This document shows positions 14,380-21,442 of a stretch of 64,000 nucleotides of DNA, in pieces. Each line of letters begins with the position of its first letter. The first letter of the stretch is position 1. Origin of the DNA: Sulfurospirillum sp. UCH001 (lineage in GTDB: Bacteria; Campylobacterota; Campylobacteria; Campylobacterales; Sulfurospirillaceae); contig NZ_AP014723.1 in NCBI RefSeq assembly GCF_001548035.1, forward strand, positions 930,001 to 994,000, given 5' to 3'. A program made the translations under genes and the position numbers. The notes beneath the pieces are model-generated. The model was given only the letters and a program-made list of their open reading frames with translations. It was not told the origin of the DNA and made no database searches.

Positions 14380-14991
14380 ATGTTTGCCTCTTTTTTTGCC
14401 AAGCGTAATGCTAAAAACCTTAACGATGAACAGTACCGTTTTTTATTTGAGGAAGCTCCTTTGGATGAAGTGGTGGTCTTTGATACCGAAACAACAGGCC
14501 TCAATCCTAAAAAAGATGAGATTCTCTCTATCGGAGCGGTAAAGCTCAAAGGCAACAAAATCTTGATGTCCGAAAAGTTTGAACTCTTTGTAAAACCCAC
14601 ACGAGAGATCAATGAACAGAGTATCAAGATTCACCAAATTCGCAATATAGACCTACAAAATGGGTGTGAAGCACGTGAAGCGATTACGAAGTTTTTACAC
14701 TTTATCGGATCTCGTCCGTTGGTCGGTTATTACCTTGAATTTGACATCAAGATGATTAACAAATACCTAAAACCCTATCTTGGCATCACTTTACCAAACC
14801 GACAAATTGAAGTCTCAGGGCTCTACCACGATAAAAAGATAAAGCTCATTCCTGATGGCGTTATAGATTTACGGTTTGATGTTATGATGAAGGATTTGGG
14901 CTTGCCAATTTTTGGCAAACACGATGCCCTCAATGATGCTGTGATGACAGCGATGATGTACATTAAACTTCAAAATATTGAGAAGGTCTAG
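14380..14991 (+). CDS. DnaQ-like 3'-5' exonuclease
   Basis: A 203-residue protein with the DEDDh exonuclease motifs: FDTETTGLNPKKDEI (Exo I) near residue 32, GYYLEFDIKM (Exo II) near 114, and KHDALNDAVMTAMM (Exo III His and Asp) near 185. It resembles the epsilon subunit of DNA polymerase III but lacks a clear clamp-binding C-terminus. The gene begins one base after the DUF294 stop, so the two are translationally coupled. Its stop overlaps the stop of the convergent Rrf2 gene (CTAG). A general RNA/DNA exonuclease working with the DUF294 partner is more likely than the replicative proofreading subunit. Confidence 0.85.
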   Translation: MFASFFAKRNAKNLNDEQYRFLFEEAPLDEVVVFDTETTGLNPKKDEILSIGAVKLKGNKILMSEKFELFVKPTREINEQSIKIHQIRNIDLQNGCEAREAITKFLHFIGSRPLVGYYLEFDIKMINKYLKPYLGITLPNRQIEVSGLYHDKKIKLIPDGVIDLRFDVMMKDLGLPIFGKHDALNDAVMTAMMYIKLQNIEKV

Positions 14992-15386
14992 TGTTTTTTA
15001 TGAAGATCTTTGAGTGTAGAGTTTTTAAACATTTCATCGATGAGTTGCTTAGGCTTTGACCAACATTCATGCAAAGCACAATGCTCACCTTGCCCACAGA
15101 GTCCTTCTCCCATAATACATACATCATCATTTAGATCATTCATTACTTCTAAAATATCGTAAAGGGTGATTTCCTCAACAGGTTTTGCAAAGATAAATCC
15201 ACCATTTTTCCCTCTGGTTGAACTAATAAATCCAGCTTTTCCTAGATTAGTCATAATGCGTGTGAGATATTTATAAGGGATATTGAGTGTTTCTGAAAGT
15301 CCTTTTGCAGTATGCTGGTCTTCTTCATGAAGGCTCATGTGTGACAAAATGCGTAGAGCATATTCAGATGTTGTTTTAAGTTTCAT
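14988..15386 (-). CDS. Rrf2 family transcriptional regulator with four cysteines
   Basis: A 132-residue regulator. The winged helix-turn-helix spans about residues 1-65 (start MKLKTTSEYALRIL; wing STRGKNGGF). The C-terminal segment has Cys at 90, 97, 103 and 108, close to the spacing of the [Fe-S] ligands of IscR and NsrR. It is divergent from the haem-copper two-gene unit, with a perfect palindrome between them. This suggests a nitric-oxide- or redox-sensing repressor of that unit, an inference from position. The ATG at 15386 has GGAG seven bases upstream; a TTG at 15401 lacks a site. Confidence 0.9.
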   Translation of the reverse strand: MKLKTTSEYALRILSHMSLHEEDQHTAKGLSETLNIPYKYLTRIMTNLGKAGFISSTRGKNGGFIFAKPVEEITLYDILEVMNDLNDDVCIMGEGLCGQGEHCALHECWSKPKQLIDEMFKNSTLKDLHKKH

Positions 15387-15567
15387 ACGATTCTCCGTCA
15401 ATTCATAAACTTCTTGCTATAGAAAATTGATTGTAGTGTTCTAAGAAGTCATCTGTATTGTATAGAAAAAATATTAAACACAGATAACACAATAAATATA
15501 GTATTTTTAAAGTAAAAATCTATCAGCAATTTTTAATTTTCGCTTTAGTAGTATTGCACTGGTTAAA

Positions 15568-15585
15568 TACTACCTTTTGGTAGTA
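15568..15585. promoter_or_regulatory. Perfect palindrome, candidate Rrf2 operator
   Basis: TACTACCTTTTGGTAGTA: seven-base arms around TTTT, 21 bp before the start of the haem-copper subunit gene. A further GTAGTATT at 15548-15555 is inverted relative to AATACTAC at 15566-15573. A TTAAAT at 15564-15569 could be the -10, so binding would block transcription. The hairpin is not followed by a coding end, arguing against a terminator. Confidence 0.6.
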
Positions 15586-15606: not shown

Positions 15607-16194
15607 ATGACGTTTTTGAACTCTTTAGAGTTGTTGGCATTCCACAATGTTGCATATACCATTTATGCATTGCTCATTATTGCGATCATTGCTTGGTTTG
15701 GTTATAACCTTACACGTAGTGAAGCAGCAAAGCCTTTAGTGCGCATCCCTTTTTATGGGTTTATCGCATTTTTGGTGGCAGCGGGAGTCGGGCACCATAT
15801 TTTTACGTACAATGTAGTTCCTTGGGTTGCACAGGACATTATGCGTGAAAGTATCACACCAGATAAAGTCTATAAAGTTGTGGTTGAAAAACATCAGTTT
15901 CAACTTCCAAGTGAAAAGCTTGTCGTCGAATGCGGGCAAAAAATATTGTTTGATGTTACGAGTAAAGATTTGGTCTATGGTTTCGGACTATTCCGTAAAG
16001 ATGGAACCATGGTAACGCAAATGCAAGTCAATCCAGGTTCTAAAAATACCATTTTATGGACATTCCATGATGAGGGTGTATTTGATCTTATGTCGACAGA
16101 GTACTCTGGTCCAAAAGGAAATGGTATGTTCGTACCTAGCATTATGGAAGTGAGAGGTTGTAAAACCAAATTGGCTCAAGGAGGTTCTAAATGA
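15607..16194 (+). CDS. Haem-copper reductase subunit II-like cupredoxin without CuA ligands (gNOR-type)
   Basis: A 195-residue protein with two membrane helices (about residues 15-33 and 50-70) and a periplasmic cupredoxin domain as in cytochrome oxidase subunit II. The CuA ligands are absent: Tyr124 stands for the first His (DLVYGFGLF), Ser163 and Ser167 for the two Cys, and Gly171 for the second His. Only Met174 and Glu165 remain. It therefore cannot build CuA. The stop overlaps subunit I as ATGA. The arrangement fits a gNOR-type nitric oxide reductase rather than an oxygen reductase. AAAGGATGAGGT precedes the start. Confidence 0.8.
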   Translation: MTFLNSLELLAFHNVAYTIYALLIIAIIAWFGYNLTRSEAAKPLVRIPFYGFIAFLVAAGVGHHIFTYNVVPWVAQDIMRESITPDKVYKVVVEKHQFQLPSEKLVVECGQKILFDVTSKDLVYGFGLFRKDGTMVTQMQVNPGSKNTILWTFHDEGVFDLMSTEYSGPKGNGMFVPSIMEVRGCKTKLAQGGSK

Positions 16195-17846
16195 GTTTTA
16201 TGCATGATTTTGTTCATGGCGCAGATAATAAATTTGATCATATGAGTTTGAATGCTTTACAAAAAGCAACACTAAGAGCCGTTGTCGTTTCATTTTTATT
16301 TTATGGATTGGCAGCGTTAGAGGGTATGATTATGCGTGCAGCGTCTATTGCACCTTCTGTTCCTCCTGTTCATGGTAGTGTCGATCATTACTTCTCTATT
16401 ATGACCGTTCATCCTATCGTTGGTATTTTTGGTTCAACCTATCAGTTAGTGTTTGGAGCATTTCTTTTCCTCGTGCCATTTCTAACAAAAAAGCCGTTGT
16501 ATAGCATTAAATTAGCGAATGCTACATGGATTTTAATTACGGTTGGAACAATGACATCGTGGTTAGCTTCATTTGTTTATAACTATGCACCGCTTTATAC
16601 GCTTTACTGGCCATTGCCTGCGGATACAACACAATTTAAAGCGATTGGTGGCGTTATGTTTATCGTCGGTGTTGCGCTCATTATGATAGGAACATTGCTC
16701 TTTATTTATAACATTTATGCAACCGTCTTTTCAAAAGTGGGTGTTCATAAGAACAAAACAACAAAAGAGCTTCTTATCTCTGGTTTTGGTATCGATGGTA
16801 TGCTCAATCTTGTTCATAAACTGACTGGTAAACAACCGTATTCAAAAGAGCCAGCGCTTTCGTTACCTGTTGTTGCTATTTTTAGAGGAACAGTCGATAC
16901 CTTCCTCGATGCGCTTGTTATTTTATCAGCGGGTGTTTTAGTTCTTGTCTATCTTCTTGCCGATATGGGTGGCGTTAAATTAGATGTTGCGTCTATTGAT
17001 GCGCTGTTATATAAAAACTGGTTCTGGTGGGGACTTGACCTTGTTGCTGATGGATTGGTACTTATCTATGTCGCGGGTTCTTGGTATCTTTTAGCAACAC
17101 TGATAACAGGGCAAAAACTTTTTATGGAAAACGTTGCACGTGCGGCGTTGATGCTAGAGCTTTTGGTTTCATGGATGGTGTGGTCTCACCACTTGCTTGC
17201 AGATCAAGGTCAACCAGAAATGATGAAACTTATCTCTGGCGAGATGGTAACGGCGTTTGAACTTTTGACACAAGGTTTAGCGCTGTTCATTACACTTGTA
17301 ACCCTTTGGAAAGCAAGACCGCTTAAAATGACAATGGAGCTCAAATACCTTCTTGGCGGTTTAATCGGATTTGGTTTGGCTGTTCCTGCGGGTATCATTC
17401 AAGCCGATATGGCAATGAACCGTGTCCTTCACAATACGCAATGGATCATCGGTGCGCACGTACATATTGCAATTATCGTTGGTCTTTATATGACACTTTA
17501 TAGTGCGGTATATGTCCTTTGGCCACTGGTAACCAACAATGCAAAGCTTTGGAGTACAAAACTAGCCAATGCGCATTTCTGGTTACACCTTATTGGTGGT
17601 ATCGGTATGGGTGCATTTATGGGTATGGCAGGACTTGATGGTATGCTTAGACGTCATCTTTACTTCAATGGCGAATATAACCTCTTTATGATTCTTGCAG
17701 CGATTTGTGGCACGATGTTACTTGTTGCTTGGCTTCTTTTCTTGTTCAACGTCATTATGTCTGTTGGACTCAAAGGTCTTATTGGTATCTTCTTACCATC
17801 AAAGAACAAAGAAGCAAGCTATGGCATTGAGCCAGCAAATGCTTAA
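16191..17846 (+). CDS. Haem-copper superfamily subunit I, gNOR-like nitric oxide reductase
   Basis: A 551-residue membrane protein with 12 or more helices. Haem ligands are visible: His74 (low-spin haem), and His423 and His425 in GAHVHIA (high- and low-spin). His333-His334 (SHHLLAD) are two ligands of the active-site metal. The third TM6 ligand is changed: GLDLVADG places Asp283 where oxygen reductases and cNOR have His, and Asp287 where they have Tyr or Glu. There is thus no cross-linked Tyr, and oxygen reductase function is unlikely. I recall an Asp replacement of this kind being described for the gNOR family; this needs alignment. It probably reduces NO with quinol-derived electrons. A hairpin follows. 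Confidence 0.82.
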   Translation: MSFMHDFVHGADNKFDHMSLNALQKATLRAVVVSFLFYGLAALEGMIMRAASIAPSVPPVHGSVDHYFSIMTVHPIVGIFGSTYQLVFGAFLFLVPFLTKKPLYSIKLANATWILITVGTMTSWLASFVYNYAPLYTLYWPLPADTTQFKAIGGVMFIVGVALIMIGTLLFIYNIYATVFSKVGVHKNKTTKELLISGFGIDGMLNLVHKLTGKQPYSKEPALSLPVVAIFRGTVDTFLDALVILSAGVLVLVYLLADMGGVKLDVASIDALLYKNWFWWGLDLVADGLVLIYVAGSWYLLATLITGQKLFMENVARAALMLELLVSWMVWSHHLLADQGQPEMMKLISGEMVTAFELLTQGLALFITLVTLWKARPLKMTMELKYLLGGLIGFGLAVPAGIIQADMAMNRVLHNTQWIIGAHVHIAIIVGLYMTLYSAVYVLWPLVTNNAKLWSTKLANAHFWLHLIGGIGMGAFMGMAGLDGMLRRHLYFNGEYNLFMILAAICGTMLLVAWLLFLFNVIMSVGLKGLIGIFLPSKNKEASYGIEPANA

Positions 17847-17852
17847 TCTTTT

Positions 17853-17875
17853 TTGCACCGCTTTATGCGGTGCAA
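17853..17875 (+). terminator. Hairpin terminator after haem-copper unit
   Basis: TTGCACCGC and its exact complement flank TTTAT, followed by CTTCTTTAT. It lies 7 bp after the subunit I stop. Confidence 0.7.
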
Positions 17876-17896: not shown

Positions 17897-18505
17897 ATGA
17901 TACATTTAGAACGTGTTGCACGAGAGATTAAAACCATAGGGCTTTATGATTTAGTCTATCAAGATGTTGAAAAAGCGCTTGGTAAGAAACATATCGAACT
18001 CATCGATATAGAACACTGTTTACAAACACATCCTGAGATTTTAGAAGCTTACAAACAAACAAACCTCGAATACAACATCAGCAATATCCATATCAAGCCT
18101 ATTGATGAAGCATTGGTTGATACGGAAGATAAAAAAGATGTAAGGCGTGTGAATACGAATTTAGCAACACTACAAGAGATTGAAAAATACACGATTGATT
18201 TTGAACAAAGTTCGATTCTTGTCATTATCATGTCAATCGAATTTTTTGTCCTCTTTTCGGTGCAGTATTTTATTGTCTTGCTTAACTTAAAAGAGTGGCA
18301 GTGGGAGATTTACGGTGTGTTTGGGCTCTCTGTACTTTGGGCTTGGCTGTACGCTAAAAAAGAGCGCAAAAAGTTTGAGCATCATGCATGCATGTATGCA
18401 AAACTTTATGAAGAAACACTTCAACTCTTGGATGCTCTTGAGAGTAAAGGATGCATTGAGAGAAAAAATTTAATGATACAAGAGAGTAGTGAAGACCATA
18501 TTTAA
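17897..18505 (+). CDS. Hypothetical protein with two membrane helices
   Basis: Not recognised. The protein has 202 residues: a soluble N-terminal part of about 105, two hydrophobic segments near residues 108-130 and 138-155, and a charged helical tail (KKERKKFEHHACMYAK onward). The start at 17897 is preferred over an upstream ATG at 17870 because the latter lies inside the preceding terminator hairpin. No strong ribosome-binding site is visible. It lies between the haem-copper unit and a chemoreceptor gene 36 bp downstream, so it may be cotranscribed with the receptor, but no shared role can be shown. Confidence 0.7.
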   Translation: MIHLERVAREIKTIGLYDLVYQDVEKALGKKHIELIDIEHCLQTHPEILEAYKQTNLEYNISNIHIKPIDEALVDTEDKKDVRRVNTNLATLQEIEKYTIDFEQSSILVIIMSIEFFVLFSVQYFIVLLNLKEWQWEIYGVFGLSVLWAWLYAKKERKKFEHHACMYAKLYEETLQLLDALESKGCIERKNLMIQESSEDHI

Positions 18506-20369: not shown

Positions 20370-20386
20370 ATATAAAGGATGTTGTG

Positions 20387-21442
20387 ATGCAAAATGAATC
20401 TACAAAAACCGCTTCTGGTATGGGCTTTTTTGAGCGTTATCTTACCGTGTGGGTGGCTTTGTGTATTGTTGTAGGTGTTGCTATTGGTCAGTTTTTTCCT
20501 ATTATCCCTCACACGTTAAGCCGTTTTGAATATGCCAATGTCTCCATACCTATCGCGATTCTCATTTGGTTGATGATTTACCCGATGATGCTCAAAATTG
20601 ACTTTGCGAGTATTTTAGATGCGGGTAAAAAACCTAAAGGTTTGTGCATTACCTGTACGGTGAATTGGTTGATCAAACCGTTTACGATGTACCTTATTGC
20701 GGCATTATTTTTTAAAGTAATTTTTGCAAGCTTTTTGCCTGAAAATCTTGCGAATGAATACTTAGCAGGAGCCATCTTACTAGGCGCGGCTCCTTGTACG
20801 GCGATGGTGTTTGTATGGAGCCATCTCACCAAAGGCGATCCTGCTTATACCTTGATTCAAGTAGCGGTGAATGATTTGATTTTACTTATTGCATTCACGC
20901 CCATTGTGGCTTTTTTGCTGGGTGTAAGCAATGTTTTTGTCCCTTATGACACGCTCTTTTTATCGGTGATTTTATTTGTTGTTATTCCTTTACTTAGCGG
21001 GTATCTTTCACGTCGTTACGTCATAAAGCACAAAGGGCTTAGTTACTTTGAAAATGTGTTTATTAAAAAATTTAACAACACGACCATTTTAGGGCTTTTG
21101 CTCACACTTATCATTATCTTTACGTTTCAAGGCGATATCATTCTCAACAACCCGTTGCACGTACTTTTGATTGCAATTCCTCTTACTATCCAAACGTTTT
21201 TTATTTTTTACATCTCGTATGGTTGGGCACGTGTGTGGAAACTTCCTCATAACATTGCAGCACCTGCTGGCATGATAGGTGCAAGTAATTTTTTTGAGCT
21301 CTCTGTAGCCGTAGCGATTACGCTCTTTGGATTGCAATCAGGTGCAACACTCGCAACAGTCGTAGGGGTACTGGTGGAAGTGCCTGTCATGCTGGCATTG
21401 GTGCGCATAGCAAACAATACAAGAGAGTGGTTTGAAAAGTAA
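20387..21442 (+). CDS. acr3: Acr3 family arsenite efflux transporter
   Basis: Acr3 extrudes arsenite (and often antimonite) across the inner membrane using the proton-motive force. The protein has 351 residues and about ten helices. The conserved Cys of TM4 is present as Cys137 in GAAPCTAMV, and the TM9 Glu in ASNFFELSVA; both are needed in studied Acr3 proteins. GTCNW-like and GDPAYTLIQVAVND segments also match. The ATG at 20387 is seven bases after AAGGA; a GTG at 20384 is too close. An ArsR-type operator lies just upstream but no arsR or arsC is nearby, so a regulator acting in trans is inferred. Confidence 0.92.
   Translation: MQNESTKTASGMGFFERYLTVWVALCIVVGVAIGQFFPIIPHTLSRFEYANVSIPIAILIWLMIYPMMLKIDFASILDAGKKPKGLCITCTVNWLIKPFTMYLIAALFFKVIFASFLPENLANEYLAGAILLGAAPCTAMVFVWSHLTKGDPAYTLIQVAVNDLILLIAFTPIVAFLLGVSNVFVPYDTLFLSVILFVVIPLLSGYLSRRYVIKHKGLSYFENVFIKKFNNTTILGLLLTLIIIFTFQGDIILNNPLHVLLIAIPLTIQTFFIFYISYGWARVWKLPHNIAAPAGMIGASNFFELSVAVAITLFGLQSGATLATVVGVLVEVPVMLALVRIANNTREWFEK

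Follow-up and report, generated by a model that had tools for sequence, protein, structure and literature searches.

A putative gNOR-type nitric oxide reductase operon with a linked third gene in a nitrate-ammonifying Sulfurospirillum-like genome

Nitric oxide reductases (NORs) release N2O, a strong greenhouse gas, as their product. gNOR is a family proposed from phylogenomics and related to B-type oxidases, and it is not one of the four NOR families with a biochemical characterisation (PMC11388526). It has been described as norGH, a quinone-oxidising and non-electrogenic enzyme (PMC8906906), and has been reported with D as active-site residue in Sulfurimonas, Sulfurovum and Persephonella (PMC8756737, Table A4), as well as in Ca. 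Methylomirabilis (PMC6094997). The family is little characterised, and the literature searched yielded no measured NO reduction for any gNOR. The window analysed here is a stretch of 64,000 nucleotides (bases 930001-994000) from the genome of Sulfurospirillum sp. UCH001, a single contig of 2.6 Mb with its closest relatives in the Sulfurospirillaceae (Campylobacterota). Since gNOR has already been published, the two-Asp site of this locus is a family signature and not a new discovery, and the His-to-Asp change at the TM6 metal ligand (position 283 here) is presumably a published gNOR trait. The kind of enzyme is therefore already known, the locus being a new member in a Sulfurospirillum-like nitrate-ammonifying genome; the part for which no description was found in the literature searched is a gNOR-linked family of membrane proteins, here ORF3.

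The gene of the putative gNOR catalytic subunit I (16191..17846, plus strand) encodes 551 aa with a COX1 fold (PF00115, E 1.5e-51), and its classification draws on residues, tree and alignments. TM6 carries the motif G281-LDLVAD-G288 (GLDLVADG; 17031..17054, plus strand), in which residue reading, MAFFT and profile alignment place D283 (codon 17037-17039) at the metal-ligand His position and D287 (codon 17049-17051) at the Tyr/Glu position; the remaining two metal-ligand His, H333-H334 (17187..17192, plus strand), were located by residue reading and MAFFT. The haem ligands are H74/H425 for the low-spin haem and H423 for the high-spin haem. The initial annotation had listed H74, H333, H334, H423 and H425 as kept; all five are in place, and its coordinates and length were right. 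D283, D287 and these five His are invariant across 103 non-identical homologues, which share about 61-97% identity with the window protein, so that a sequencing slip or chance can be excluded for the Asp pair; many further residues of subunit I are also invariant in this set.

MAFFT, run with oxidases of types A, B and C as well as cNOR and qNOR, aligns D283 to the metal-ligand His of TM6 (HPEVY in A-type, HLWVE in cNOR), and D287, at +4 from D283, takes the position of Tyr in A/B oxidases or of Glu in c/qNOR; the alignment opens a one-residue gap beside the A/B-type Tyr, which is still at +4 when counted from the ligand His. The spacing of 50 residues between D283 and H333 equals that between the metal-ligand His and the HH pair in A-type oxidases. 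The profile-profile alignment with A/B-type oxidases is nearly full-length (hhalign E 2.7e-31) and sets D283 against H251 and D287 against Y255. Both earlier claims, that Asp283 stands where the third metal-ligand His should be and that Asp287 stands where oxidases have Tyr and cNOR has Glu, are thus borne out by the two kinds of alignment. The search for a His in the TM6 ligand slot returned none; after H209, the next His in the translated sequence is H333. Subunit I has neither the three-His CuB site with cross-linked His-Tyr of the oxygen reductases (A/B/C) nor the TM6 HxxxE motif of cNOR/qNOR. A standard qNOR or cNOR misread through a shifted alignment would be expected to carry out the same overall reaction, and Glu211 of cNOR does occupy the position of D287; however, this reading is already refuted by the sequence, which offers no His at 209-333 for the TM6 ligand slot, the clades are separate at 100/100, and a distinct cNOR-like gene is also present in most gNOR genomes, so that we regard it as scarcely credible.

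The c/qNOR profile match (E 5.8e-5) is far weaker than the A/B match, and the predicted fold of subunit I (pTM 0.82) finds its best matches among A-type, bo3 and ba3 oxidases. Both results would suit a divergent oxygen reductase, or an enzyme with NO as side substrate only, working without the Tyr radical. Such an enzyme is improbable here, since the O-O-cleaving Tyr and one metal-ligand His are missing and are never restored in the 103 sequences; a strong match to a C-type-like oxidase is already present in 33 of the 34 gNOR genomes searched (the exception, G170, is a draft); and the examples of bNOR and eNOR demonstrate that NORs can occur on the B-type side (PMC11388526). The AlphaFold model of subunit I has pLDDT below 50 at residues 281-286, and ligand geometry from this model was dropped because the active site is too poorly resolved. 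Homology predicts a two-His, two-Asp metal site with both Asp coordinating. No solved example of a metal site with two carboxylates was found among the relatives, which counts against the gNOR explanation; if confirmed, a two-Asp haem-copper site tests which metal ligands NO reduction truly needs.

The tree comprised oxidases of types A, B and C together with cNOR and qNOR. Subunit I groups with its relatives in a separate clade (100/100 support) outside all of these groups; this clade is placed near the A- and B-types and far from C-type, cNOR and qNOR, with long branches leaving its exact sister group unsure. Placement inside an oxygen-reductase clade was therefore not recovered, and the separate clade, together with Asp as the published active-site residue, supports the earlier reading of a gNOR rather than an oxidase. 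A large part of the clade consists of relatives from Sulfurimonas and Sulfurovum, which are among the three genera in the published gNOR list (PMC8756737). Given these relatives and the signature and taxa in the literature, the window protein is filed as gNOR, an assignment supported by signature, taxa and gene order. A plasmid occurrence of gNOR was also considered and rejected, as only oxidases were matched, at <33% identity.

On the upstream side, the gene of subunit II (15607..16194, plus strand) overlaps that of subunit I by 4 bases; its product has two TM segments and a periplasmic cupredoxin domain whose CuA site is lost, and it matches the Thermus ba3 subunit II (E 1e-7). The CuA His is replaced by Tyr in all 76 subunit II sequences; among the other CuA ligands of this set, both Cys give way to Ser/Thr/Ala and the second His varies, Met alone being kept. 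Electron entry via CuA is excluded by the loss of the His and Cys ligands, and quinol is the probable donor, a proposal based on the absence of CuA rather than on any identified quinol site. In 18 gNOR genomes, the window genome among them, no haem O/A synthase passed the curated cut-off, so b-type haems are expected; in G201, a near-threshold haem O/A synthase copy lies beside that genome's own A-type-like oxidase. Subunit II is present in 75 of 78 gNOR loci with room for it, and this retention speaks against a further alternative, namely a sensor of NO or nitrosative stress, or a catalytically damped homologue, with no metal in its site and haems that bind NO but do not turn it over. The loss of a ligand can mean that catalysis is lost, and divergent COX1-like proteins exist in the window genome, but every other haem and metal ligand is invariant, as are many further residues, and the association with NirS across genomes, given below, fits an enzyme; a sensor or damped homologue is accordingly quite improbable.

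The genome survey covered 249 Campylobacterota genomes, 27 with gNOR and 222 without. A strong NirS match was obtained in 37 of the 249 genomes, comprising 24/27 of those with gNOR vs 13/222 of the others (p 5e-21 by genome); by genus, NirS is found in 12 of 13 gNOR genera vs 4 of 43 others (p 4e-8), a counting that controls relatedness only in part. The distance between gNOR and nirS is 4.6-11 kb in three genomes. An additional haem-copper oxidase (HCO) that resembles cNOR in size and score occurs, mostly beside nirS, in 23 of the 24 genomes with both gNOR and NirS; the cNOR motif was read in just 11 genes, those of NirS genomes without gNOR, and every one of these 11 genomes has cNorB with HLWVE. 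The idea of gNOR as a cNOR substitute was dropped, since most gNOR genomes hold both. The association with denitrification alone is no proof of the NO substrate, because NirS genomes mostly hold cNOR too. Meanwhile, the window genome has Nap and Nrf, and searches for NirS, NirK, full NosZ and cNOR gave no match, which makes the host an ammonifier with gNOR as the sole NOR found; through gNOR, a nitrate ammonifier that lacks NirS, NirK and NosZ would then be a source of N2O. The simplest role for gNOR in this host would be NO detoxification. Only 9 of the 44 Sulfurospirillaceae-level genomes searched carry gNOR, which was counted against the gNOR explanation; set against a published survey of eleven Sulfurospirillum genomes, in which a nor cluster was found in one strain only, the same count indicates that pipelines restricted to cNOR/qNOR miss gNOR. 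As separate observations, the locus G000:C1:1029927-1030433 (L003), with a relative at L144, encodes a multi-helix protein of ~525 aa that carries an AHAH motif, matches COX1 below threshold and represents a very divergent HCO-like family, with another membrane protein encoded next to it downstream; COX1 is matched weakly and in part by a membrane protein of ~420 aa at G000:C1:1590554-1590835 (L004).

Downstream of subunit I lies ORF3 (17897..18505, plus strand), a membrane protein of ~202 aa from an unnamed gNOR-linked family; the first ATG matching its relatives is at 17897, and the listed GTG at 17870 falls inside a hairpin. Members of the family have ~200 aa and a strongly kept core, EKYTLDFEQSS...EFFVLFSVQYFIVLL. 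In the contig collection, where ORF3 equivalents stand at loci L014-L092, the family comes after gNOR at 68 of the 73 loci with room; in the 249 Campylobacterota genomes it is found in 23 of the 27 with gNOR, always just downstream of it, and G237 holds a 24th, diverged copy. The only gNOR genomes without ORF3 are G096, G164 and G257, all with diverged gNOR, and none of the 222 gNOR-less genomes has the family, a single weak match in G065 sitting in a 29-aa frame. Attempts to identify ORF3 through Pfam, NCBIfam, PDB sequence and Foldseek gave no reliable match and were rejected; its model is all-helical with a mean pLDDT of 86. We infer that ORF3 is a dedicated gNOR partner, and since gNOR without ORF3 exists, an assembly factor or accessory subunit is likelier than a part of the chemistry. 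A more far-reaching proposal, in which Campylobacterota gNOR has three components, ORF3 is a subunit or metal-inserting factor and the two-Asp, two-His site holds a non-Cu metal, is possible but doubtful. ORF3 offers a concrete lead if two-gene gNOR expression fails to assemble. In addition, a YcxB-like fourth gene follows ORF3 in 59 of 81 gNOR loci (e.g. L023:8334-8846) and is absent from the window operon. An ACR3-type arsenite efflux transporter (20384-21442) is encoded two genes past ORF3, behind a chemoreceptor.

Divergent from the operon lies a gene (14988..15401, minus strand) for a regulator of the Rrf2 family whose Cys cluster is of Fe-S type, and a perfect palindrome, ACTACC-TTTT-GGTAGT (ACTACCTTTTGGTAGT; 15569..15584, plus strand), is a candidate operator upstream of subunit II. 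The Rrf2 gene failed the NsrR equivalog test, with 51.8 bits vs the NCBIfam cut-off of 182. In Sulfurospirillaceae relatives that have the Rrf2 gene as well, the arms of the palindrome (ACTACC-N4-GGTAGT) are largely conserved; the window has one perfect match, with 0.75 expected by chance at up to two mismatches. The Rrf2 protein and the palindrome are a candidate regulator-operator pair. Rrf2 as a general gNOR regulator was rejected, since neighbourhood clustering places it at 4 of 81 loci; together with tblastn, in which Rrf2 beside gNOR is essentially confined to close Sulfurospirillaceae loci, this makes the linkage local. A strong hairpin with a 9-bp stem and a weak T tail, identified by pattern match only, lies between subunit I and ORF3 (17853..17875, plus strand); it is possibly an attenuator or processing site and may set a different expression of ORF3.

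Taken as a whole, the locus very probably encodes a quinol-fed membrane NO reductase of the gNOR family that detoxifies NO in a nitrate-ammonifying host. gNOR would reduce 2 NO to N2O at a binuclear site composed of the high-spin haem b3, with H423 as proximal ligand, and a non-haem metal whose ligands would be H333, H334 and probably D283 and/or D287. Electrons would come from the quinol pool, not from soluble cytochrome c via CuA, and would pass through the low-spin haem b (H74/H425). The NO removed would most likely arise in Nap/Nrf nitrate ammonification or come from neighbours, and ORF3 may assist the enzyme as its dedicated partner.

Compared with known systems, the window locus shares with published gNOR the Asp active-site residue, the core of cupredoxin subunit II and subunit I, and the taxa, while the ORF3 link and the YcxB-like fourth gene seen here were not found for gNOR in the literature searched. 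With the A-/B-type oxidases (ba3, aa3, bo3) it has in common the fold, the haem ligands and two CuB His, and it differs from them in Asp for the third CuB His, Asp for Tyr and the loss of CuA. cNOR and qNOR are alike in the expected reaction and in the carboxylate at TM6 +4 (Glu211 in cNOR), but they retain three His plus Glu and are distant in profile and tree, and cNOR in addition uses a haem c subunit. eNOR, sNOR and bNOR (CuANOR) resemble the window enzyme as NORs with an altered residue at the Tyr position, which is Gln in eNOR, Asn in sNOR and Asn in bNOR (PMC8756737, Table A4), and Asp in the window.
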